From contig JANQMX010000060.1 of assembly GCA_028279885.1 (NCBI GenBank), positions 124,001 through 188,000 of the forward strand: a DNA stretch of 64,000 bases. Direction: 5' to 3'. Within the stretch, counting starts at the first letter, position 1, and each line of letters opens with the position of its first letter. The notes below the pieces were generated by a model, which saw only the letters and a program-made list of their open reading frames with translations, was not told the origin of the DNA and did no database searches. The DNA comes from Rhodovibrionaceae bacterium. Its GTDB lineage: Bacteria; Pseudomonadota; Alphaproteobacteria; Kiloniellales; DSM-21159. Positions 1-14,349 of this stretch are shown here, piece after piece. A program made the position numbers and the translations under genes.

Positions 1-426
1 GACGCGCTCCTGCGTCATTGAGACGCTTGCCGCCGTCTCCGCCTGCGTAACGACGCTGCCGCCTCCAAGGCTCTCAGCCCCAAGCATGACGGCCTGAATG
101 TCGGCGCCGTTCGCGGCGATCAGGTCTGTGAAGGCAATGCTCGCGGCGTCCAACTGGCCGACCGCAAGGGCCACGGCTTGGCCTTCGAGATCGGCGTGAG
201 CTGCGCCGTTGTCGACCGAGGCCTCGGTCAAGGTTAGAGCTAGGGCCGCATCACCCGAGGCTATTGCCAGCGCACCACTCTCGGAGAAGGTGATGATCCC
301 ACCGGCTGTCACGGTGTCGAGTTGACGGGCGGTAAGTGGAATGGGCTCGTCGGCCAGCGCACCTCCGGCCAGTAGCAGCCCAACTGCCGCTACAAGTCCT
401 GCTGTATGTGCCGTTGCACCCCGCAT
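1..426 (-). CDS. Exported Ala/Thr-rich protein with LDxVTAG motif, partial (C-terminus outside window)
   Basis: Reading leftwards from ATG 424-426, the frame stays open for 142 codons to the window edge, so the C-terminus is missing. GGAAAGGCGG lies just upstream as ribosome binding site. The first 25 or so residues are a signal peptide (hydrophobic AAVGLLLAGGALA, probable cleavage after ALA). The mature protein begins DEPIPLTARQLDTVTAGG; the LDxVTAG element recurs in small exported proteins of alphaproteobacteria and resembles a double-glycine leader end. The rest is rich in Ala, Thr, Ser and Leu with alternating hydrophobic/polar residues (ITFSESGALAIASGDAALAL), the sort of sequence found in extracellular fibre or amyloid-type substrates. 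It shares orientation with the regulator, barrel and C39 peptidase genes up to 4245, so I infer it may be a substrate of that system. The precise family is not recognised. Confidence 0.6.
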   Translation of the reverse strand, partial: MRGATAHTAGLVAAVGLLLAGGALADEPIPLTARQLDTVTAGGIITFSESGALAIASGDAALALTLTEASVDNGAAHADLEGQAVALAVGQLDAASIAFTDLIAANGADIQAVMLGAESLGGGSVVTQAETAASVSMTQERV

Positions 427-622
427 CGCAGTTCCGCCTTTCCATCAGCGGCGCCTGCGCTTTGTTCGCTGTGATCCACGCAGCCTGGCCCGCTGAAATT
501 GGCTTAAGCTGTCTCTTAGCGTATCTCTTAGGGTGCTCTATGCATGACACGTCACAGTGGGTGTTGAGAAGCTCATCAATGGAAGTACGCCCATCGATGG
601 CCTGCCGTGCAGCGCCAGCTCT

Positions 623-940
623 CTAGCGGGGAGGGGATATCGAGCGGCTGCTTGTGCGCGAGGAAGCGCTGGACCTGGCGCCTCTTTCAATCGAGACCGT
701 CACCGCGACGGACGCGCTCTCCCCGGTGGCGCGGGCGCGTGCCGAGGAGCGGGGTTTCCTTTGCCCCAGCGTGACATGCTCCTCAGCCTGGCCGTGGGCT
801 TGGCGCGACGTCGATAGAGTCTCAGACTTCCCCAAGCCCGGCGGAGCTTCATCGGCCAAGACCTGCGCGATCACCGCGGTCGTTGCGATGATCGCGGCGC
901 CAAGCAGAGCGCAAGCGATGAGCTGGCTTCTGTGTGCCAT
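623..940 (-). CDS. Small exported protein of unknown function
   Basis: This 105-residue frame starts at ATG 938-940 behind AGGAAA. An upstream in-frame start at 1126 would add 62 residues and hide the signal peptide, so I reject it. Residues 1-33 form a clear export signal (MAHRSQLIACALLGAAII followed by TTAVIAQVLA-DE). The mature part is short, hydrophilic, rich in Ser, Arg and Ala, with no recognised domain and no Cys. It sits between the LuxR-type regulator and the other small exported protein on the same strand. The plus strand of the same segment is also open, but has no signal peptide or ribosome binding site. The C-terminal half looks compositionally poor, so a frameshift relative to an ancestral longer gene is possible. 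Confidence 0.45.
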   Translation of the reverse strand: MAHRSQLIACALLGAAIIATTAVIAQVLADEAPPGLGKSETLSTSRQAHGQAEEHVTLGQRKPRSSARARATGESASVAVTVSIERGARSSASSRTSSRSISPPR

Positions 941-1163
941 GGCGTTTCCTGAATGGATCGAGCACCGTTCAACGCGCACTCTTGCAGATGAATCGATGCG
1001 CGCGTACCTCGCCTTTCGGAGAGGGCGTTCCTTCAGGCAGCTTGGCGCATCGCCTGCCCGGCTGGCTACAGCTTGAGCCGAGTCTTTAGCGACCTCTCTC
1101 TCTATCGGCCGCCAATCTAACGACAATGTCGCTCGCGGACGCGCCCGTGCCTTGAGTGATCCT

Positions 1164-1964
1164 TCACTGGCTCTTGGTTGAGCCGACCAACCTCATGGCA
1201 TAGAGGGCCGCTTGTGTTCTGTTGGTCGCCTTTAGCTTCTTCATAATCTGCCGGATGTGCACCTTCACGGTGCTCTCCTGCATGTTCAGCTCATAGGCTA
1301 TGACCTTGTTTGGGTCTCCGCGGCACAGATGGGCCAAGACTTGCTGCTGTCTTGGGGTAAAGTTGGGCGCATCGTCATCCTCTGCCGCGTCGTAGCCTGC
1401 GGGTGCAAGGTCTTCGAGATGAAGCTCGCCCGGCAGCGACGAGACTTGCTCCAGTGCATCGACCAGCGCGCCGGCCGGCAGAAAGATGCCGCCCGCACGA
1501 ACCAGGCGCAGAGCTTCCTTCACCACGGTCGCGGTCAAGGTTGTGGGGATGTAGCCGTTGACTCCTTGTTGTGCAGCCTGGGTTACTTGGCTGCCGTTGG
1601 TCCGATCGCCCAAAATGATGATGGGGCAGTCGCGGAAATTGTGCTTGAGCAAAAGAATACTCTCCCGCACCGGCTTATCGCCGATCGACTGAGCGGCGAT
1701 GTTCAGAACGACCAACTTGACGTCGGCGGCCATGTCGCCGCGCAGGCTCAGCAGATCTTCTGGCCCGGACAGCGGCACGACGACATAGTCTCTGGTTGCC
1801 GAACGAAAGAGCTGAGAGAACGACTCCCTGGTGAGGGGTCGTGGATCGAGCAATGCCAAGATGGGACGCTGGCTCGGTTCGGGCTTTTCAATATCCGCGA
1901 TTGGCCGAATTGCCGCGACCTTGTGCTCACCGGTTTGCTCTTCTGGTATCGCGTTGGAGATCAT
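1164..1964 (-). CDS. LuxR/NarL-type transcriptional regulator with degenerate receiver domain
   Basis: 266 residues. About residues 34-160 resemble a CheY-like receiver fold (ILALLDPRPLTRESF, then LVVLNIAAQS, then CPIIILGD), but the phosphoacceptor position in the third strand carries Asn88 instead of Asp, and the acidic pocket keeps only Asp40. Residues about 200-260 are a LuxR-type helix-turn-helix (FTPRQQQVLAHLCRGDPNK, then STVKVHIRQIMKKLKATNRT), with the usual xxLTPRxxxVL and VKxHxxxxxxKL pattern. A phosphorylation-independent regulator of the CsgD/VpsT kind is therefore likely. It lies directly downstream (362 bp) of the barrel and C39 peptidase genes on the same strand and upstream of two small exported-protein genes, so control of that export locus is the obvious inference. 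The DNA-binding call is firm; the target is inferred. Confidence 0.85.
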   Translation of the reverse strand: MISNAIPEEQTGEHKVAAIRPIADIEKPEPSQRPILALLDPRPLTRESFSQLFRSATRDYVVVPLSGPEDLLSLRGDMAADVKLVVLNIAAQSIGDKPVRESILLLKHNFRDCPIIILGDRTNGSQVTQAAQQGVNGYIPTTLTATVVKEALRLVRAGGIFLPAGALVDALEQVSSLPGELHLEDLAPAGYDAAEDDDAPNFTPRQQQVLAHLCRGDPNKVIAYELNMQESTVKVHIRQIMKKLKATNRTQAALYAMRLVGSTKSQ

Positions 1965-2326
1965 TTTTCGTATCTCCCCTAGAGTCTCCCTATCTACACG
2001 GCGGCCGGTCTCGCCAGGCCGTGAGGACTCTCATTGGTATGAGAAGTAGTCCTTCGCAATATACCAACACTATCACCGCGGATGCGCTTTTTGTCATCGT
2101 TCGGCAACCAAACCCGGAATTGCCACAGCAATTTCACAGAACATTGATGCCTTAAAACAGGTTTTTCGGCTGGGAAATGCAGAATTAAATTTCTGCGTCG
2201 ACCGATAGGAGACGCCAGAAGGACGGACACTCGCTCTTTCGTTGCATCGAAGGATGAGCAGGCGGAGCAACACATGCCGGTCGCCGCGCGTCCAACCGAG
2301 CAAGCAACGGTCGCGCATTTGAACGG
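1965..2326. other. Intergenic region upstream of the LuxR-type gene
   Basis: 362 bp without a convincing gene. It is AT-richer than its surroundings, especially about 2040-2200, as expected for a regulatory region preceding the leftward regulator gene. Short frames here lack ribosome binding sites and domain similarity. I could not pick a defensible -35/-10 pair or terminator hairpin for the barrel gene that ends at 2327. Confidence 0.4.
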
Positions 2327-3577
2327 CTACCAAAGTGTCAGGCGCACCGGTAGAGACAGGAAAACGGAGTAGTCGGGAGAATCGTCAGTGAGCCCCGCGC
2401 CAGCGGTGAAGTTCAGCAGCGTCCCGCGCGCCAGGATGCTGGAAACCCCGAAGCTGATGACCGCTTGGTTCTCGTCCGATCCGTTGATGGTGTTGCCGTT
2501 GAACTCCAGGTCATCGCGGTAGGAGGCGTTCAGGCTGAGGCTGAGCGAGGTTTCCGGGCTGGCGGCAAGGAAGGCGGCCACGCCCACCCCAAAGCGGTCG
2601 CCGGGCTGGATGTTGTCGTTCTCGAAGGCATGCTCGTAGCTGAGGCGTCCGACGAAGGCGAAGGGGTCCTGACGCTTGATGGCACTGATCGACCCGATGA
2701 TCTCGTGAAAATCGGAGCTTAGCGAGACTCCGTTTTCGGAGTCCTTCCCTGTATCGCTGTCCCAGGTTACGCGGCCAACAAGGTCGGGTATCCAGCCCTC
2801 TTCCCGCAACAGAGTTTTCGCGACACCGACGCGAAGGTCGCCCAGGCCGCTAGCGGTGTCGTCCGAACCTGTTGCAGCAGCGAGCTCTTGATTGTCCTGC
2901 TGGCGGACGAAGTTGTACGGCAGTCCGAGTTCAACCTGCGAGTCGAACGGCAGCCCGACACGCAGGTTGAGGCCGGCCGTGATCTCGTCACGTTCGACAC
3001 GTCGGTCGGTGGCGATGAGATCTCCCCCGGCGTTCAGCAGGGCGCTCGACGAGGAATCGTCGTATTCGTAGCTGACGAAGGGCTCGATATCCGCCTTGCC
3101 GACCGGCAGCAGCAAATCGCCGGTCAGCACCAAGGTGCGCTCGAGCGCGCGCTCCGCCGCTTCCGGATCGACCGTCACCTGACCCGGAGGAACGGGGGCG
3201 TCGTCCGAAGCTTGTGCCGTTTCTGCCGGTTCCCTATCCGCCGCTTGCCTGGCCGGGGTTGGCGGCACCGCCGGCTCAGGCGGCGCCGCGGTATCTCCGC
3301 CTGCAGCAGAGCCGGCGATCGATCTCACGAGCCGTTCCAATTGCTCCACCCGATCTTCCAGTTGCCGAACGGAGGCCTCTCGATCTTCCAGCCGCTGCTC
3401 GAGGTCTTCCACTACAGCCCGCCGCTCGTCCAGTCGGCGAAGCAGTTCCTCCACTGTCGGATCCGCCGCGCTGGCGGTCACCGGCATGCCGATCGTTAGG
3501 ACGGTGAGCCAGACGCTGCACAGCAGCGGACGTCGGCCGAGGTGGGGAGGCTGCAGAGTTCGTCGCGCGGCAGGCAT
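2327..3577 (-). CDS. FapF-like outer-membrane protein: N-terminal coiled coil plus beta-barrel
   Basis: 416 residues from ATG 3575-3577, which overlaps the stop of the upstream peptidase gene by one base (TGATG), so the two are translationally coupled; a GTG one codon earlier is possible. After a signal peptide (to about ASAAD, residue 39) comes a charged heptad-rich coiled coil at about 41-88 (VEELLRRLDERRAVVEDLEQ onwards), then a Pro/Ala-rich linker to about 135, then about 260 residues of alternating hydrophobic/polar beta-strands (EPFVSYEYDD, then LRVGLPFDSQVELGLPYNF) ending LSLPVRLTLW with a terminal aromatic, as in outer-membrane barrels. The barrel looks like the Phenol_MetA_deg-type family, to which the amyloid secretion pore FapF belongs. 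Coiled coil plus barrel next to a C39-like peptidase matches the FapF-FapD pair of Pseudomonas. The FapF role is inference; a general outer-membrane channel is the alternative. Confidence 0.75.
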   Translation of the reverse strand: MPAARRTLQPPHLGRRPLLCSVWLTVLTIGMPVTASAADPTVEELLRRLDERRAVVEDLEQRLEDREASVRQLEDRVEQLERLVRSIAGSAAGGDTAAPPEPAVPPTPARQAADREPAETAQASDDAPVPPGQVTVDPEAAERALERTLVLTGDLLLPVGKADIEPFVSYEYDDSSSSALLNAGGDLIATDRRVERDEITAGLNLRVGLPFDSQVELGLPYNFVRQQDNQELAAATGSDDTASGLGDLRVGVAKTLLREEGWIPDLVGRVTWDSDTGKDSENGVSLSSDFHEIIGSISAIKRQDPFAFVGRLSYEHAFENDNIQPGDRFGVGVAAFLAASPETSLSLSLNASYRDDLEFNGNTINGSDENQAVISFGVSSILARGTLLNFTAGAGLTDDSPDYSVFLSLPVRLTLW

Positions 3578-4245
3578 CACCGCAGCGTCAGGAATTCTTC
3601 GGGCCTGGGCGCGAGATCGTTGGGCGCAGTTAGTCCATCCAGGCGTGCGACGACGAAGCCCACTTTGCCGATTTCTTCGCCGTAGTCGATCCAGGCGCGT
3701 TCGAACTTTGCGGCCGGCATGGTGCGATTGCCGTAGGCGGGATCGGCAAGCAGTACCCGATTGCCCATCTGCCCACGGAATATGACGAAGTGATTGTATC
3801 CGTTGCTCGTGATCGGGACCATGATGGGCGCCTTTTCGACGAGGTCCTTCAGCTCCATTCGGCCGAAGCCGATGCCCTCGTAGCCGCGGGCGTCGACATA
3901 GCGTTTCAGGTCGTACAAGGAGAAGCCGTGGCGCAGGCGGACCAGCAGCGGATTCTCCACGTAGCGCGCCTGTGCGATCAGGCCGAGTGCGACCTCCTTT
4001 TCGCGCACCTTATCGCCGTGTTGGTAGTTCAGCAGTGTCGCCAATGCGGCGGCACCACAGCTCAGGTCCCAGTTTTGGACGACCACACGCTCTTGACGGG
4101 CTTCGAGAAGCGATTTGACGACGCCCCGTTCGCCGGCGCTGCCCGGCGTAGCGGTTAAGCCAAGGACTGCCGCCGTGACCGCGGCTGCGAGCGAAACTTG
4201 TTTGGCAGACAGGAGGGCGTTGAACACCGTCGCCTCGCTTGGCAT
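3577..4245 (-). CDS. Exported C39-like cysteine peptidase (FapD-like)
   Basis: 222 residues from ATG 4243-4245. A GTG at 4225-4227, with GAGG six bases upstream and giving MFNALLSAKQ, may be the better start. A signal peptide covers about residues 18-38 (AAAVTAAVLGLTATPGSA). The catalytic fold is plain: Gln57 (oxyanion hole) and Cys63 in VVQNWDLSCGAAALATLL, His152 in NGYNHFVIFRG and Asp168 in VLLADPAYGN, the Cys-His-Asp triad of C39 peptidases. Unlike ABC-transporter C39 domains there are no membrane or ATPase domains; the protein is a free periplasmic enzyme, as is FapD of the Fap amyloid operon. It overlaps the coiled-coil barrel gene by one base. I infer processing or surveillance of exported subunits bearing glycine-type leaders. 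Family call firm, substrate unknown. Confidence 0.8.
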   Translation of the reverse strand: MPSEATVFNALLSAKQVSLAAAVTAAVLGLTATPGSAGERGVVKSLLEARQERVVVQNWDLSCGAAALATLLNYQHGDKVREKEVALGLIAQARYVENPLLVRLRHGFSLYDLKRYVDARGYEGIGFGRMELKDLVEKAPIMVPITSNGYNHFVIFRGQMGNRVLLADPAYGNRTMPAAKFERAWIDYGEEIGKVGFVVARLDGLTAPNDLAPRPEEFLTLR

Positions 4246-4324
4246 CGATCGCTAGACAACGCGCCGTGGTAACGGCGGCACATTGAAGAAGCCATGCTAG
4301 GGGATGCGACGAGAACGCGAACAG

Positions 4325-4366
4325 TCCACCAAAAGGCGTAGGGCGGGTATCCACCAAAAGGCGTAG
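4325..4366. repeat. 17-bp direct repeat pair
   Basis: TCCACCAAAAGGCGTAG occurs at 4325-4341 and again at 4350-4366, separated by 8 bp (GGCGGGTA). It lies 99 bp before the transposase orfA relic start. It could mark the left end or a target-side scar of the element; no matching copy was found on the far side of the relic. Confidence 0.6.
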
Positions 4367-4464
4367 TCCCGAGTGATGCCGAAGCGGTAGGCGGCAAGAT
4401 GTACCAAAGAGGTTGGTCGGTCCGCGCCATGCTTCCGCTATTCTTGCCGGGTAAGGAGTTCGAC

Positions 4465-4830
4465 ATGAGCAAGGACGCATCAGTCGACAACCCCGTTGAA
4501 GCGACGGGGCGCAGGACGCGCAAGAAGTACTCGGCCGAAGACAAGATCCGTATCGTGCTCGAGGGCCTGCGCAGCGAGGTGAGCGTTGCGAGGCTGTGTC
4601 AGCGGGAAGGCATACCGAGCAATCTGTACTACCGCTGGAGCAAAGAGTTTCTGGAAGCTGGGAAGCTGCGGCTCAAGGGCGGGCCATCCCGCGAGGGCCT
4701 CTCCAGAGAGGTTGCCGAGCTACGCAGCGAGAACGAGCAGCTCAAGCAGCTAGCCGCCGAGCTGATGCTGACGAACCGCAGGCTGAAGCGGAGCCTGACC
4801 GGCTCGACTTTCGAGGAGCCGGACTCGTAG
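4465..4830 (+). mobile_element. IS3-family orfA relic (orfB missing)
   Basis: 121 residues from ATG 4465 with AAGGAG upstream; extending to 4399 adds unrelated residues. Residues about 17-60 (RKKYSAEDKIRIVLEGLRSE, then ARLCQREGIPSNLYYRWSKEF) are the HTH_Tnp_1-type DNA-binding domain of IS3 orfA. About 78-110 form the leucine-zipper coiled coil (EVAELRSENEQLKQLAAELM). In an intact IS3 element, orfB (DDE integrase) follows in the -1 frame; here none of the three forward frames after 4830 encodes DDE motifs before the next gene, so the element is broken and cannot transpose on its own. It separates the C39 peptidase gene from the exported-protein gene at 5162, suggesting insertion inside the locus. 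Confidence 0.8.
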
Positions 4831-5161
4831 CGATGCGTGCGGTGCAAATCGAAACCGGTTGTGACCTTGCGGCCTTGGCCGTCTGGCGCACAGCAAGCGC
4901 CAACGAAGGTGGAGTCTGTCCCACGAGCCCTTGCCGCTTGCACGATAGGGAGCGCGACCGTCACCTCACCGGATAAGCCCCTGACGAATAGGCCGTATCT
5001 GCCGCCGATCAAAGGGGTATACGCCTATCAGGCAGATTGAAGCTCGCGTCGGTGCCGTGTCAGGGTTTTGGAAGCTCTTCCGTCACAAGAGGTTACGGGG
5101 GCCTTGTTGCTCAGCGGTTGCATCGCTTTGAGCACGCCCGACTTTCCAAGAGGAGAAGGAT
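4831..5161. other. Intergenic remnant between IS relic and 5162 gene
   Basis: 331 bp with no supported gene. A 67-codon frame at 4837-5040 has no domain and no good ribosome binding site. The right end of the IS element is not recognisable. The last 30 bases hold the strong ribosome binding site (GAGGAGAAGG) of the gene at 5162, so its promoter probably lies here. Confidence 0.4.
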
Positions 5162-6064
5162 ATGGGACAGGTCATCTTCAACACCGACATCAAGAAAGAC
5201 GTCAATATTAACAAGACCGTCCTGCTCGACGTTTTCAAGGACGTGGACGCGGACGTCGATATTCAGGGACGCTTGGCCACGGCCGAAGCCTCGGCGGATG
5301 CGCTGGGTGCAATTGGCAACGGCAACGGGACTGGCGACCCCATCACGTTCTTCCTGCTGGATGATTTCGACAGCGAACAGCTGGTTGCAGCCGACCCGTC
5401 GCCGCCGCCACCTGGTGCGGTGAATCCAGCAGTCGATTCCATTCCGCTGCTTGCTACCGAATCGGACTTTCCTGCTGGCACGGAGCGCGAGGTCACTGTC
5501 AATGTCGTCTCCGGAACGGGAACCTCGGTGTTCGAGTCAGGCGCGGGAAGTCTCGCTGACTTCAGCAATCCATCCGGGAATGCGGCTGAATTCAGCTTGG
5601 TCTACGATTTGACCAGCACCACCGATGTTCTCAATGGGGCTAACGAGGCAACCGCCTTCCTGCATATCGCAGAAGCGGGGTCCGACCTTGGCGAGGACCT
5701 CGATATCACCTTTATCGACTCCGACGGTACCATCGCCACCGTCCAGCTCGTGATTCCGGAAGACACCTCCATGGCTCCCGTCACCTTTTCGGAGCCCTTG
5801 TCGAGCTGGCAGGCGGTTGCTTCCGGCGGTGCCGATGATTTCCTCGACTTCACGGCTATAGACGAGTTCCGATTGGAGATATCCGACGAGACTGAAGCCG
5901 ACACCTTCCTGGATATCGTCGAGATCAAGGATGTCGTACCAGGGGGCGGTGGCACGCTGGCCGAGACCGACACCTTTGCGCAAGTGGACGATAGTGGCGC
6001 CTTCGCGTTCTCGGAATCGCTCGCGGCCTTCGATCCGGGCAACAACGACGTTTTCATCGCCTGA
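5162..6064 (+). CDS. Probable exported fibre/amyloid-type substrate with beta-sandwich insert
   Basis: 300 residues, ATG 5162 behind GAGGAGAAGG. There is no Sec signal peptide. Residues 1-50 (VIFNTDIKKDVNINKTVLL, then DVDADVDIQGRLATAEASAD) carry a strand-rich KDV-x-x-(N)KT / D-x-D-x-x-G-x-x-A-x-A-E-A pattern that I associate with exported repeat proteins of alphaproteobacteria. After a Pro-rich linker at about 75-90, residues about 95-255 look like a beta-sandwich of the choice-of-anchor/PEP-CTERM kind. The last 35 residues (TLAETDTFAQVDDSGAFAFS, then ESLAAF) return to the AE-T-FAQ / FSFSESLAA pattern. The architecture is thus a head and tail of one repeat-like module around an inserted domain. 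With the neighbouring barrel and C39 peptidase I infer a secreted surface substrate. No enzyme motif is visible. Confidence 0.7.
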   Translation: MGQVIFNTDIKKDVNINKTVLLDVFKDVDADVDIQGRLATAEASADALGAIGNGNGTGDPITFFLLDDFDSEQLVAADPSPPPPGAVNPAVDSIPLLATESDFPAGTEREVTVNVVSGTGTSVFESGAGSLADFSNPSGNAAEFSLVYDLTSTTDVLNGANEATAFLHIAEAGSDLGEDLDITFIDSDGTIATVQLVIPEDTSMAPVTFSEPLSSWQAVASGGADDFLDFTAIDEFRLEISDETEADTFLDIVEIKDVVPGGGGTLAETDTFAQVDDSGAFAFSESLAAFDPGNNDVFIA

Positions 6065-6146
6065 GCCCGAGGGACGGGCGAGGCGGGCGGGTGGCCGTAT
6101 TCCGACCCACGCTGCGGCACACCCGCCTGAATGTTGACGCTAGAGC

Positions 6147-6191
6147 ACGTCCGGCCGCCATGGGGCGCTGCGACCCATGGCGGCCGGACGT
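6147..6191. repeat. Perfect 18-bp inverted repeat (hairpin)
   Basis: The arms at 6147-6164 (ACGTCCGGCCGCCATGGG) and 6174-6191 are perfect reverse complements around a 9-base loop. It lies 83 bp after the stop of the 5162 gene and 122 bp before the RTX gene. No T-run follows, so it is not a classic intrinsic terminator; it could attenuate or stabilise a transcript, or be a protein-binding or mobile-element site. Confidence 0.75.
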
Positions 6192-6312
6192 CGCAGTCGT
6201 TTGATGGGGGCGGGAGATCCCGCCGCAGCGACAGCGTCCGACACTGCTGACTTAGAGGATGAGCAAGATCGTTTAATTCAGTTGCATCGGTCCTTTCAAT
6301 GGGGGGAATGAC

Positions 6313-7998
6313 ATGGCGGACGCTACGTACTTCTTGCCACCTGTTGCGAGCGATACCGATGCTCCCACCTTCGTGGACGCCTTTGGCTTTAGCGATCTCT
6401 TCAACTTCAGTCACACGCCAGTCGATCTTGTTGCCGCTACGGACGCTGCGACCATCGCTAATCGAGGCGTGACACTGGTCGCGGCCGAGGCAACCGCATC
6501 CGGCACCGGCGGCTCCTTTGCCGATCTGCTGACCACAACCGATAACATGGGCGCCGTCATCGACGGCACCGGCACGGTGCAGGCGGACAGCCGTGCAGAG
6601 GTGGTTGCCTCTTTCAATGTCGCAGCGGGCGAGACCTTCGCGTTCGACTTCGATCTCTTCAGCGATATGAGGGCCAAGGAGATCGAGAACCCCGATCGGG
6701 AGTACAGCGCAGCGAGCCTTGCCACTGGCTTCATTGTTCTCGAAACCTCGGACCCGTCTCAGCCCGAGCTGTTGGGACATGTCGGAAGCTTCGGCAGCTT
6801 GATCTCCTCCGACAAGATCGCGGGCGTCACAGTCGACCATCATGTCGCGGATGAGAACGGCCGTATCGAGATCGTCGAGGAGGCTGACGTCGATATCGAC
6901 CAAGACAATCAGATCGACGGCGTCTCGGGTGTCGCTGCCGGCTTCTTCGAACAGCAGCTCGAAGCCGACAGCCAGATCACCATCATCCAGTTCAACAGCA
7001 ACACCCTCGCAGTGATGGCGGACAGCCTGATCGGCCAACTGGGCAGCGATGTCACTTACGGGACGATCTGGGATGACGTCCTGACCGGCGGCGGCAAGAT
7101 CTACGCCAGCATGGGGGATGACAGGGTCTATGGCCGGCGCAGCGACGACATCCTCGAGGGCGGGCATGGCAACGACACCCTCAAGGGATACAGCGGTGAC
7201 GACAGCCTCCACGGCGGGCTTGGCGCAGACAGCCTCGATGGCGGAAGCGGCAATGACGTCCTGCTCGGCGGTGACGACGACGACAGGCTGCGGGGCAGGC
7301 GGGGAAACGATCACCTGGAAGGCGGTGACGGCAATGATACGCTGTCGGGCGGATGCGGCCGAGATACTCTGGACGGCGGCGACGGCGACGACCTGCTCAA
7401 CGGGCATTACGGCAACGATAGCCTGGACGGGGGCGAGGGCGACGACGAACTGCGCGGCGGCAGTGGGCGCGATCATCTCGAGGGCGGAAGCGGCCTCGAC
7501 ACCCTGATCGGCGGCCGCGGCAACGATACGCTGATGGGAGGTGAGGACGGCGATCTTCTGATCGGCGATTCCGAGTCCAAGCTCTTCGGTTTCTTTGGGC
7601 TGCTTGGCTGCCGCTCCCACGATCTACTGGTCGGTGGCGCAGGCGACGACACGCTTCAGGGAGGGGTCGGCCGCGATACGCTTGCCGGTGGACTCGGTGA
7701 CGATGAGATGTACGGAGGGTGGGGCGCCGATGAGTTCTGCTTCGTCAAAGGCGAAAGCCTCGCGTCTGCCGAAGCTGACGTTATCGGCGACTTCGCGCTC
7801 GGCAGGGATAAGGTGGTGTTCGATGGCTGGGGCCTGCTCGATGAGGCACTGTGGCTCGCCGACATGGCGGCCTCGGGCAACGCCTTCGACACGGCTGAAG
7901 GCGTCGCCTTGCTGTTCGAAGATGGCGCCAGTCTTTCCCTCCTGGGATCGCACCTGACGCTCTCCAGCCTCAGCGGCTCCGACTTCGAGTTTCTCTGA
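6313..7998 (+). CDS. RTX calcium-binding repeat protein, probable type I secretion substrate
   Basis: 561 residues from ATG 6313 after GGGGGAATG. Residues about 25-250 form a beta-rich N-terminal domain without recognised enzyme motif ([20 protein letters not shown], then DFDLFSD). From about 260 to 475 there are tandem nonapeptides of the GGxGxDxLx type ([30 protein letters not shown] and so on), which bind calcium and fold outside the cell. The block is interrupted near 420-440 by [12 protein letters not shown]. The end ([17 protein letters not shown], then [20 protein letters not shown]) resembles the C-terminal uncleaved type I secretion signal region. There is no Sec signal. Oddities are Cys residues inside the RTX block (GGCGRD, LLGCRS, EFCFV). 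No HlyB/HlyD/TolC-type genes are in the window. An adhesin or matrix protein is more likely than a toxin. Confidence 0.88.
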
Positions 7999-9333: not shown

Positions 9334-10896
9334 TCAGGCCGTGCGACTTGGCGAGACGTCTTCTGCCGCCATTTTGGAAAGGGTGACGCGGTCGATTTTG
9401 CCCGCGGCGTTTTCGGGAAGCTTTTTGATCGCAACGATCTCCTCCGGCGCCTTATAGCCAATGCGATCCCGTGCCATTTTCAATATGTCCGCTGCCGGCA
9501 ACTCCTTTACGCCGGGCTTTAGCACCACGTAAGCGCGGATGTTCTGTCCATGCAGGGTATCCGGAACCCCGACCACGCCGGCGGCTTCGATCGCATCGTT
9601 TTCAAGTAGGACGTTCTCGACTTCCTGCGGGGCGATGTTCGAACCGTCGTGAATGATGATCTGTTTCTGCCGCCCGCAAAACCAGAAGTAACCTTGGTCA
9701 TCGAAGCGGAGGAGATCGCCGGTGTTGAGCCAGCCATCCTTGATCGCCTCGACGGTCTCGGCCGGCTGCCCAAAGTACCCGGACATGACAGAGGGCGAAC
9801 GGATCCACAGAACGCCTTCCTCGCCCACGCCAAGGTCCTTGCCGTTTGCATCCCGGATGGAAAACTCGTTCCCGGCCATGGCAGGACCGACGGAGCCGTG
9901 AACGATGGGACCACCGGGCGGGTTATGAGTCACGATACCGGCCTCTGTCAGCCCGTAGCCCTCCGCAAGCTCTACGCCTGACACCTGTTGAAACTTCTTC
10001 TGCAGGTCCGTCGCGACCTTGTCTCCGCCACAGTCGCACATCCGGAGGTTCGCAAATGCCGGATCGGGGTCTTCCGATGCGTAGACCATTTCGGTGAGGG
10101 CGTAGGGCATCATTGCGATCACGGTCGGTTGGTGGTGCCGCATCAAGGGCATCACGGCACCGACGCCGATGTCTTTGGCGACGACCGCGTTGCCCCCCGC
10201 GGCAAGCGCTGCATAGGACATGATCTGCGCCAGCATGTGGGAGAGCGACGCGACCGGCAGGATCGTGTCCTTCTCCGTTATCCGATATGTGGCAGAGAGG
10301 GAGGCCACGATATGGCCGAGACTGCGTTGGGTGTGGGTGACGCCTTTGGGGCGACCTGTGCTGCCTGAAGTAAAGAAGACCACGGCGGGATCGTCCGGCC
10401 CGGGCCGCTCGGGCGCCCCGGCGGCGGCAGCGCGTTCTGTCAGCGGCTCGAATGCGCCGAAGCCAGGCAATTCACCATCGACGGAAAGGCCGCCGAGGTC
10501 CAAGTCGGCAAGGCCGGCGCATTGCGAGATGTCGTGCGCGCGCTCGGCATGGGCGACCATCAGCCGTGGTTTGCTCAAACCGATGGCGTAGTCGATATCG
10601 CGCGCGAGGTAGCGGTAGTTTAGCGGGACAGTAACAAAGCCTGTGCGGAGGCAGGCCAGGTAGTGCACGAGGACCTGGAGGCGATTCGGCAAGAGCGACA
10701 CGATTCTGTCGCCGCGCCTAAGACCGAGGTCCAAGTAGTTGTTGGCGAGGTTTTGGCTTTGCGCATCAAGCGCGCGCCAAGACAGAGCCTCGTCCATCGA
10801 GGCAATCGCAACGGCATCTGGCTTTTGCCCCAATCCTCGCTCGAGGAGCCGCGCTAGATCGACCGAGCGATCAAGGGTTGGGCCGGTGACTGTCAT
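9334..10896 (-). CDS. AMP-dependent acyl-CoA synthetase/ligase
   Basis: 520 residues, usual length for the ANL superfamily. The signature P-loop VFFTSGSTGRPKGVTHT lies near residues 170-185. Further motifs are GYGLTEAG (about 315), the adenylate-binding WLNTGDLLRFDDQGYFWFCG (about 390-410) with the hinge Asp, and the C-terminal lysine region ENAAGKIDRVTL. It should activate a carboxylic acid via acyl-AMP to acyl-CoA in the cytoplasm. The substrate is not deducible; the sequence looks like the medium/long-chain or aryl group rather than acetyl-CoA synthetase. It lies 122 bp upstream of the exported hydrolase on the same strand and diverges from the winged-helix regulator at 11204. Confidence 0.88.
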   Translation of the reverse strand: MTVTGPTLDRSVDLARLLERGLGQKPDAVAIASMDEALSWRALDAQSQNLANNYLDLGLRRGDRIVSLLPNRLQVLVHYLACLRTGFVTVPLNYRYLARDIDYAIGLSKPRLMVAHAERAHDISQCAGLADLDLGGLSVDGELPGFGAFEPLTERAAAAGAPERPGPDDPAVVFFTSGSTGRPKGVTHTQRSLGHIVASLSATYRITEKDTILPVASLSHMLAQIMSYAALAAGGNAVVAKDIGVGAVMPLMRHHQPTVIAMMPYALTEMVYASEDPDPAFANLRMCDCGGDKVATDLQKKFQQVSGVELAEGYGLTEAGIVTHNPPGGPIVHGSVGPAMAGNEFSIRDANGKDLGVGEEGVLWIRSPSVMSGYFGQPAETVEAIKDGWLNTGDLLRFDDQGYFWFCGRQKQIIIHDGSNIAPQEVENVLLENDAIEAAGVVGVPDTLHGQNIRAYVVLKPGVKELPAADILKMARDRIGYKAPEEIVAIKKLPENAAGKIDRVTLSKMAAEDVSPSRTA

Positions 10897-13139: not shown

Positions 13140-13729
13140 TGACGATGGTCAAGAAAATCGCGTTCGGTTTCGCCGCCGCCCTGCTGGCGCTCACCTTCGG
13201 CGGCGCCGCGCAGGCCTCGCTCTTGGGTCAGACGGTGACCTGCAGCGCAACGAGCCTGCGCGGCACCGCCTGCTCGTCTCCGACGGCAACCGTCATGGAT
13301 GGCGGAGCGCCGGAGTTCGCAATTCGACGTTTGGCTGGGTTGGTCGACCTGCTCAACATCGACATTTCGAGTGACGGCGTGGTCATCAGCGCTGCCGGAA
13401 TTTTCGACGCAAGCACCTCGAGTTCGGTAACGCTCGGCGATCTCTTTTGGTCCAACGACCCCAACGCCACCATCACGGGGATTGCGAACCTCGTTGTGTC
13501 GGGTGTCACCGACAACTTCTTCGGCGACGGCCTCGTCGAAGGCGATATCACCACGGCCGCGAATTCCGTGACGATCGACCTCAGCACGACGAGTTGGGCT
13601 TCGGACGGCTTCGTCAGCTTCGACTTCGTGACCACGCATAGCGCGCTTCCCGAACCGGCCACCCTCGCGCTCTTCGGCCTTGGCCTCGCCGGGCTGGGCT
13701 TCGCGGCACGGCGCCGGCGGGCGGTGTAG
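13139..13729 (+). CDS. PEP-CTERM protein, paralogue A
   Basis: 196 residues. ATG 13139 overlaps the previous stop (TGATG); an in-frame ATG at 13145 is the alternative. Signal peptide about 3-25 (KKIAFGFAAALLALTFGGAA, ends QA-S). The mature start is SLLGQTVTCS; a Cys pair follows in TVTCSATSLRGTACSSP. The shared motif VTLGDLFWSNDPNATITGIA lies near 100-120. The tail is ALPEPATLALFGLGLAGLGF-AARRRR, a canonical PEP-CTERM signal. Closest relative in the window is the gene at 14346. Surface or extracellular role inferred; no enzymatic motif. Confidence 0.85.
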   Translation: MTMVKKIAFGFAAALLALTFGGAAQASLLGQTVTCSATSLRGTACSSPTATVMDGGAPEFAIRRLAGLVDLLNIDISSDGVVISAAGIFDASTSSSVTLGDLFWSNDPNATITGIANLVVSGVTDNFFGDGLVEGDITTAANSVTIDLSTTSWASDGFVSFDFVTTHSALPEPATLALFGLGLAGLGFAARRRRAV

Positions 13730-13737
13730 GGGCTTGG

Positions 13738-14349
13738 ATGGCAATGATGTTCAAGGGGATTGCATTGGGTTTTGCCGCCGCCCTGCTGGCGCTCGGCTTC
13801 GGCGGCGCGGCACAGGCTTCGCTGTTGGGCCAGACCGTAACCTGCAGTTTGCCAGACCGCTTTACCTGCGAGTCTCTCACCGGCGGCGTTGTCGGCGGGG
13901 GGACGGAGTTCCGTGTTTTCGAAATCACGCAATTCCTCGGCGCGGATGTCAGGGTCGACTACTGGGACATCGATCTCGACGAAAACAGCATCTCGATGCG
14001 TTTCCTTGACGGTGCCTCCAGCTTCGGCAGTTTTCCCGTATTCAGGGTTACGCTTGGCGATCTCTTCTGGTCCAACGATCCCACGGCAACGATCACGGGC
14101 ATCACCAACTTCACCAGCAACGCTGATGTGACGGGGATGGAGGCCGACGATGTCTCGGTCGCGGCCAATGCGCTGACGATCGACTTCGGAGGTACGATTT
14201 GGCGGCAGGGCGGCTTCATCAGCTTCGACCTGGTGACCACGCATAGCGCGCTTCCCGAGCCTGCCACCCTCGCGCTCTTCGGCCTTGGCCTCGCCGGCCT
14301 CGGCTTCGCGGCCCGGCGGCGACGCACCCTGCAGGGACTTGGAGGATGA
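13738..14349 (+). CDS. PEP-CTERM protein, paralogue B
   Basis: 203 residues, eight bases after the previous stop. Signal peptide (FKGIALGFAAALLALGFGGA, ends QA-S), then SLLGQTVTCSLPDRFTCESL with a closely spaced Cys pair, then GGGTEFRVFEITQFLG, the family motif VTLGDLFWSNDPTATITGI, and the sorting tail LPEPATLALFGLGLAGLGFA plus ARRRR. The nucleotide sequence is nearly the same as that of the gene at 14960 over most of its length, with mainly third-position differences, so the two are recent duplicates. Its stop overlaps the ATG of the next gene (ATGA). Confidence 0.85.
   Translation: MAMMFKGIALGFAAALLALGFGGAAQASLLGQTVTCSLPDRFTCESLTGGVVGGGTEFRVFEITQFLGADVRVDYWDIDLDENSISMRFLDGASSFGSFPVFRVTLGDLFWSNDPTATITGITNFTSNADVTGMEADDVSVAANALTIDFGGTIWRQGGFISFDLVTTHSALPEPATLALFGLGLAGLGFAARRRRTLQGLGG

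Follow-up and report, generated by a model that had tools for sequence, protein, structure and literature searches.

A periplasmic C39 peptidase, a FapF-like barrel and leader-tagged Sec proteins: a candidate two-step export system in an alphaproteobacterium

What does a periplasmic C39-family cysteine peptidase cut when its gene is joined to that of a FapF-type outer-membrane barrel? The question is raised by a 64,000-nucleotide stretch of DNA (hereafter the window), positions 124,001–188,000 of contig JANQMX010000060.1 from a 5.6-Mb alphaproteobacterial assembly, for which an earlier note, made from the sequence alone, had described a FapD/FapF-like gene pair and interpreted it as a divergent export locus for functional amyloid. 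The observation in that note is confirmed, with all the open reading frames (ORFs) that it named present in the window (Table 1), and its interpretation is partly supported. What it overlooked is that LDxVTAG, a motif it had noticed in small proteins, reads as a double-glycine-type leader placed behind a Sec signal peptide. We consider it probable that the locus encodes a two-step export system, in which Sec would deliver leader-tagged proteins to the periplasm, the C39 peptidase would remove the leader and the barrel would export the remainder.

Table 1. Coordinates of the features discussed, in window positions.
Feature	Position	Strand	Basis
Periplasmic C39-family cysteine peptidase, relative of FapD and FilB	3577–4245	−	222 aa; Pfam and NCBIfam
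FapF-like outer-membrane export barrel	2327–3577	−	416 aa; AlphaFold, Foldseek, VIA-align
Exported substrate precursor, 5′ part (first 142 codons)	1–426	−	ORF; only leader match of the window
Sec signal peptide of this precursor (MRGATAHTAGLVAAVGLLLAGGALA)	352–426	−	Inspection; the ORF satisfies a home-made signal-peptide rule
Double-glycine-type leader motif LTARQLDTVTAG	301–336	−	Fits the family consensus; predicted C39 cut after AG, at about 301
LuxR/GerE-type regulator with degenerate receiver	1164–1964	−	GerE, 2e-18
Small exported protein, signal-like N-terminus, without leader motif	626–940	−	Sequence
Cargo-domain protein without signal peptide or leader, C-terminal end ..NDVFIA	5162–6061	+	74% and 77% identity to a leader protein, inspection
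IS3-type OrfA-like gene	4456–4830	+	HTH_Tnp_1, 1.4e-12
RTX-repeat protein	6313–7998	+	RTX family model, 8.5e-39

The peptidase carries Cys63, His152 and Asp168 where the earlier note had read them, giving the Cys-His-Asp triad of the C39 family within a domain that is its sole Pfam match above cut-off (Peptidase_C39, 2.4e-13). Its best NCBIfam match is FilB (1.6e-30, 106.4 bits against a curated cut-off of 475), with FapD behind it (2.2e-23, 82.7 bits against 330 for model NF058616); the FapD-type C39 of another alphaproteobacterium, at locus L075, likewise scores under the FapD cut-off at 208.6 bits. The triad is invariant in 31 aligned sequences, the window protein together with relatives drawn from 30 of the 36 named loci surveyed below. 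Of 31 C39 proteins, five failed a rough check for a hydrophobic N-terminal stretch, perhaps owing to wrong start calls. At the junction with the barrel gene (CGGTGATGCC) the stop TGA (3579–3577) and the start ATG (3577–3575) share one base (TGATG), which bears out the coupling that had been proposed.

The barrel protein matches the NCBIfam FapF model NF058560 at 4.3e-12 (45.5 bits, under the 700-bit cut-off), FilC weakly (8.6e-6) and the FapF of the PDB by phmmer (3.3e-5); the FapF-like protein of a Fap-like alphaproteobacterial locus, L073, also stays under the FapF cut-off at 390.5 bits. Its AlphaFold model (mean pLDDT 83.6) comprises a signal peptide, a coiled-coil helix (residues 42–89), a low-confidence linker, a plug helix (138–151) and beta-barrel strands (161–414), and thus has the coiled coil, plug helix and barrel expected of a Fap exporter. 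Foldseek returned FapF (5o67_A) as the top hit (E = 2.2e-18) and the best 18 PDB chains were all FapF, as the earlier note had anticipated, while VIA-align superposed the model on FapF from the plug helix to the barrel end (Z 29.6, 1.7 Å over 253 residues) ahead of a COG4313 channel (Z 25.6) and autotransporter barrels (about 20). With the FapF fold, the C39 domain and the linkage of the two genes all confirmed, the pair is as the earlier note described it.

Double-glycine leaders carry L at −12, E/Q at −8, L/M at −7, V at −4 and small residues at −2 and −1. C39 peptidases cut them after GG or GA (PMC10233263). The only leader match in our scan of the window lies in the exported precursor at its edge, the whole gene of which runs beyond it (L002:9437–10426, 329 aa). 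Directly behind the Sec signal of this precursor, LTARQLDTVTAG, counted from its final G, places L at −12, Q at −8, L at −7, V at −4, A at −2 and G at −1, so that C39 would cut after AG and release a predicted mature part of 287 aa. Two small Sec-signal proteins encoded just beyond the window (L002 6729–7115 and 7175–7642) carry LGEAALDSVTAAG or LSETALDKVTAAG, and the net charges after the leader in these three proteins are −26, −14 and −14, the first being that of the window precursor. Small LDxVTAG proteins of the kind the earlier note had singled out therefore number one in the window and two just outside it, with many more in relatives; the form of LDxVTAG, a double-glycine-type leader behind a Sec signal, points to these proteins as substrates of the peptidase.

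Relatives of the C39 protein occur at 36 loci in named genomes (48–79% identity in the best segment), among them Pelagibius, Defluviicoccus, Nitrosospira, Nitrosomonas, Methylobacter, Noviherbaspirillum and Lamprobacter; these loci are mutually related, and the counts that follow are not independent events. A barrel homologue is present at 35 of the 36, mostly directly after the C39 gene and on the opposite strand in L037, L038 and L050, and the remaining locus (L040) holds a barrel fragment truncated by the contig end, so the linkage of the pair extends to its relatives. A broad pattern, consisting of a signal peptide followed by L.{4}[LMF]..[VI].[AG][GQAN], matched 101 ORFs at 32 of these loci, while 40 column-permuted patterns averaged 4.3 ORFs and never exceeded 12. 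The strict pattern matched 97 ORFs at 31 loci (96 in 31 loci once a chance match in L041 is dropped), of which 89 lie between −3 and +4 kb of the C39 gene, 84 share its strand and 71 lie no more than 3 kb upstream of it. The resulting consensus, L-[TS]-x-x-[QE]-[ML]-D-x-[VI]-[TS]-A-G, that is, L(−12)..[QE](−8)[ML](−7)D.[VI](−4)[TS]A(−2)G(−1), has the double-glycine spacing of hydrophobic residues at −12, −7 and −4 and small residues at −2 and −1, columns that the scan itself imposed, which leaves the excess over permutations as the test; the columns free of the pattern constraint are also conserved, with Q/E at −8 in 82 of 100 and T/S at −3 in 92 of 100. We did not find a published account of such a leader in the open-access literature, most subscription papers being beyond our reach.

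The association also holds at the level of whole genomes. Among 385 alphaproteobacterial genomes, a C39 homologue is present in 23 at E ≤ 1e-8, nine of which belong to the close group at E ≤ 1e-40. A hidden Markov model (HMM) of 38 positions spanning signal and leader, built from 64 rows of which three are from the window's own genome, reached the motif in eight of the nine close-C39 genomes versus one of the 376 others (Fisher p = 7e-15), and in seven of eight versus one of 376 when the window's genome was set aside (p = 3e-13); in 33 further genomes with matches at E ≤ 0.01, these cover the signal-peptide part only and were left uncounted. The lone match without a close C39 (genome G003) reads LTEAALDRVSARD and is unlike a signal-peptide protein. 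On the permuted-pattern controls and this co-occurrence we reject a chance motif.

The type of leader also follows the type of enzyme. In a tree of 79 C39 domains, the window protein falls in a clade of 48 (support 97/96), in which 39 rows have a VTAG leader nearby, nine have none and none has a leader of the RG/TGQ type, while all 17 RG/TGQ labels lie outside. The sole VTAG label outside the clade belongs to the second C39 of a Methylobacter locus that also holds a clade member. Because the root was placed at the midpoint and some branches are long, with a warning from the program that joins may be false, we use the tree solely to show that leader type tracks enzyme group; enzyme and leader code thus appear to go together. 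In this Methylobacter locus (L041) the two C39 types, one from the 48-row clade and one from the other branch of the tree, lie about 3 kb apart (9773–10591 and 13196–13963).

What follows the leader is far more variable than the leader itself, because the 118 mature regions recovered (48 loci scanned, 42 with matches) spread over 53 blastp clusters, 37 of them singletons, and a conserved leader on dissimilar cargo looks like a processing signal. The 120 distinct mature regions have a median length of 76 aa and a median net charge of −2 (78 negative, 13 above +3), and about half of their residues are Ala, Ser, Gly or Thr; the cargo is mostly acidic or near neutral and rich in these four residues. 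Asn and Gln make up 4.9% and 3.5%, and A.A.A patterns occur in 62 of the 120 regions versus a mean of 33.8 and a maximum of 44 after shuffling. Eight cargo proteins searched against Pfam and NCBIfam gave no convincing family, with one weak match to Asr. A CC dipeptide is present in nine of the 120 mature regions, and a CC or CCG motif marks the mature part of one cargo family of nitrifiers and methanotrophs (L029, L030, L033, L039, L045 and L054). Most loci hold several small cargoes, and these vary between loci, which gives the machine the look of a general exporter of leader-tagged proteins rather than of a dedicated Fap operon. The cargoes are most likely surface or matrix proteins and would act at the cell surface.

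In the mechanism that we propose, the precursors would cross the inner membrane by Sec, as their signal peptides suggest. The periplasmic C39 would then recognise the L-x3-[QE]-[ML]-D-x-[VI]-[TS]-A-G left behind the signal peptide and cut after AG, much as the C39 domains of ABC exporters do, a step for which the leader spacing, the co-occurrence and the intact triad argue. FapF is a trimer. To judge from its predicted fold, the FapF-like barrel would let the freed cargo out, gated by its coiled coil and plug helix.

Several observations weigh against this mechanism. The leader scans relied on a home-made signal-peptide rule, and the leaders find no good match among the double-glycine leader families of NCBIfam and Pfam: the 64 leaders gave scattered weak matches to curated leader families, for example one of 64 to the NHLP leader at E = 0.12. 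A simple triad pattern failed in six of the 79 C39 domains of the tree set. blastp may miss kinship among short low-complexity cargoes, and an AlphaFold model of one cargo family (six sequences) was uninformative at pLDDT 38.5. In the window's genome some 5 kb separate the two small leader proteins from the pair, and they adjoin an apparent type I secretion operon, judged by inspection. A strict leader protein was not found at five of the 36 named loci (L031, L051, L053, L056 and L060), nor within 4.5 kb of the C39 gene in nine of the 48 clade members, namely these five with L027, L063, L070 and L072. In L027 the leader proteins lie about 6 kb away; L031, L051, L053 and L063 (genome G071) have them elsewhere in the genome; L060 is a 3-kb contig and L072 has only a near-miss motif. 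L056 and L070 are real misses, as searches of their whole genomes found no leader protein; the latter is the ninth close-C39 genome, G264, where the pair sits at a contig end. Two burkholderial loci that lack a leader protein close to the pair have, adjoining it, small exported proteins that carry ..P[EA]MDNF[KQ]STRTRADV (L053 11307–11600; L056 9761–10051 and 10520–10813) and fall outside the leader consensus.

Four other explanations have to be set against the two-step export system. The closest to the earlier note is a divergent Fap amyloid operon that has kept FapD and FapF and whose exported proteins are very divergent, amyloid-forming FapA/B/C/E; the fold of the barrel, the FapD profile match of the peptidase and the Ala/Ser/Gly/Thr-rich cargo with its excess of A.A.A patterns would all suit it. 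The cargo is low in Asn and Gln, however, and the FapB and FapC models match nothing in the window's genome at E ≤ 0.01, both being found in four of four control genomes, nor does FapE at E ≤ 1e-10, a level reached in 20 of 398 genomes. Among eight window proteins the Fap models find FapD and FapF only, and none of eight scanned substrates matches them. Recognisable sets of FapB/C, D, E and F do exist elsewhere in the Alphaproteobacteria (L073 and L075, with FapC/B-like and FapE-like genes and a C39), although their matches, including the FapF and FapD scores given above, are all below the curated cut-offs, and the window C39 belongs to a separate clade. We therefore reject a divergent Fap operon as the best account and regard it as quite unlikely. 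The earlier note was right that FapB, FapC and FapE are not recognisable here and that the system has substrates of its own, which we take to be the leader-bearing exported proteins; its designation of a functional-amyloid locus is not supported.

The nap island of Neisseria resembles the window locus in having a C39, a FapF homologue, leader-bearing small proteins and a regulator, and there NapP (the C39) and NapF (the FapF homologue) have been proposed to export GG-leader peptides after cleaving them in the periplasm (PMC11798529). By this analogy the cargo would be bacteriocins or self-lysis peptides directed at cells of the producer's own or of other species. Mature Naps, however, are cationic peptides of 16–36 aa (<10 kDa) with GG leaders, described from few Neisseria species, and the available part of that account suggests that another protein may carry them across the inner membrane and does not mention Sec signals (PMC11798529). 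Here most mature regions are negative, the three leader proteins of the window's locus strongly so, and several cargoes are larger than Naps, which makes a bacteriocin or self-lysis role unlikely; the taxonomic range differs as well. It is also improbable that LDxVTAG serves to dock proteins at the barrel or target them to it, with the C39 as a non-cutting chaperone: some C39-like domains are indeed inactive and only bind substrate (PMC5557850, PMC6173800), but Cys, His and Asp are invariant in the aligned sequences, the small residues A and G occupy −2 and −1, and the active-site Cys is required for Fap secretion (PMC5557850). Finally, the leader proteins could be unrelated to the pair and belong to a neighbouring type I secretion system, given that small leader proteins stand beside ABC transporter/HlyD-like genes (by inspection) in both the window genome and Pelagibius. 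They have Sec signals, which type I substrates are not known to carry, most leader genes of the named loci lie shortly upstream of the C39 gene, and the leader co-occurs with a close C39 across genomes; we hold this explanation to be very improbable.

Set beside known systems, the two-step export system shares its leader spacing, from L at −12 to the small residues at −2 and −1, with PCAT/class II microcin export, and differs from it in that the window C39 is a free exported protein (222 aa, Pfam C39 only) not fused to ABC transporter domains, and in that its substrate has a Sec signal ahead of the leader. Fil, a 'putative pilus' system with a C39 (FilB), a barrel (FilC) and FilA, supplies the best NCBIfam match of the peptidase. 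At four FilB-type loci (L150–L153) a neighbour, presumably FilA or DUF6160, has ..L..x[VIA]TGQ behind its signal peptide, a leader that ends in GQ, whereas that of the window type ends in AG. DUF6160 matched five of our 64 leaders weakly (best E = 0.06), and Fil models other than FilB and FilC matched none of the eight window proteins scanned.

The comparison with Pseudomonas Fap, which shares the periplasmic C39 and the FapF barrel with coiled coil and plug helix, extends to a possible cut site. The system described here differs from it in its several small, mutually dissimilar cargoes tagged with a VTAG leader, in a C39 of a separate clade and in profile scores far under the curated cut-offs. 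Fap proteins have been reported to have no canonical C39 site, and FapE was the only one whose N-terminal peptides were missing from the mass spectra (Rouse et al. 2017, PMC5557850). Both that paper and a 2018 review (PMC6173800) describe the FapD target as unclear, and the review places FapD and FapF together in five further phyla. FapE N-termini carry a similarly placed site: 19 of 21 FapE-family genes have [LM]xxxRG[RK] just behind the signal peptide, for example ELKDAEMAELRGRY, and the two exceptions are HGK in L112, as seen in L078, a larger region around the same gene, and TGK in L114. Because FapE genes are homologous, these counts amount to one observation. If the cut is assumed to fall after [RK], [LM] and G occupy −7 and −2, matching the double-glycine spacing, a hint that fits the earlier suspicion of FapE as the FapD target without proving it.

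A single pattern for all C39 classes was tried and rejected: a pre-set double-glycine-spaced pattern gave 10 matches at 10 of 31 FapD/FilB-type loci, not clearly above 60 permutations (mean 3.9, maximum 11). The pattern [LM]xxx[RTSQ]G[GRKQ], chosen after viewing the loci, matched 27 of 44 signal-peptide proteins beside a C39 and, of the remainder in those regions, 13 of 258 (p = 1e-17; permutations averaged 1.7, with a maximum of 10), with matches at 20 of the 31 loci and none at 11; a single tandem duplication (L162) accounts for four of the 27, and the match at L074 looks like chance. As this pattern is post hoc, we extend the claim to Fap and Fil with less confidence than we make it for the clade of the window protein. 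In L162 a whole Fap-like unit is tandemly duplicated (6805–7506 and 9669–10370), each unit with a fibre-like protein, a small leader protein, a C39 and a second leader protein. We give about an even chance to the wider reading in which the C39s that accompany FapF-type barrels (Fap, Fil, Nap and the window clade) share one Sec-plus-leader code, of the form [LM](−7), three free residues, x(−3), G/A(−2) and G/A/R/K/Q(−1) directly after the signal peptide. FapE would then be a FapD substrate cut between RG[RK] and [YF], and the window clade would be the general-purpose branch, serving dozens of cargo families, so far unannotated, among nitrifiers, methanotrophs and marine alphaproteobacteria.

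Around the pair, the LuxR-type regulator announced by the earlier note holds up on its GerE match, and the 'dead receiver' it ascribed to this protein is plausible, the receiver scoring 0.043 and the phospho-acceptor site reading LVVLNI on inspection. A phmmer search (E ≤ 1e-5) places relatives of the regulator close to the pair at 11 of 44 other loci; the two lowest-scoring may be no more than general LuxR proteins. Of the exported proteins in the earlier note, the leader-bearing precursor and the small protein between it and the regulator stand; the latter belongs to no Pfam or NCBIfam family, and its match at the syntenic locus of Pelagibius is weak and of low complexity (8e-5). If the cargo-domain protein on the plus strand was also meant, it does not stand, as inspection finds neither signal peptide nor leader and the leader scan did not report it.

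This cargo-domain protein is 74% and 77% identical over two segments to the leader protein L002:7178–7534, and the shared domain, KDVNINK..LDVxKDVxAxVxIxGRLATAEASADALG, thus occurs in one genome both with Sec signal and leader and without either. A leaderless counterpart occupies the same place in Pelagibius (L027 7035–7973, −). The leaderless protein is perhaps a type I secretion substrate, and one cargo domain may be exported by two routes in one cell. RTX-repeat proteins and an operon of ABC/HlyD type by its look flank the system (window 6313–7998, +; L002 7747–9375, −; L002 about 3383–6546, −); family models, run on the window gene only, confirm its RTX repeats, and the flanking ABC/HlyD genes were judged by inspection. 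The arrangement is common to the window genome and Pelagibius litoralis (L027). No OrfB was seen in the ORF list beside the IS3-type OrfA-like gene, an apparent homologue of which (L027 8416–8826) has the corresponding place in Pelagibius, with the C39 gene to one side and the leaderless cargo gene to the other; given this shared position, the gene may be an old remnant or a DNA-binding protein that has been kept.

A peptidase clade accompanied by many dissimilar Sec proteins that share one leader offers a residue-level candidate for the cut site of these enzymes and, by analogy, for that of FapE. If the proposed mechanism is true, it would define an export route composed of Sec, a periplasmic leader peptidase and an outer-membrane barrel, for which the leader would serve as a handle to find the cargo. 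It also hints at possible targets for the proteases of bacterial amyloid systems, a class that has been puzzling.

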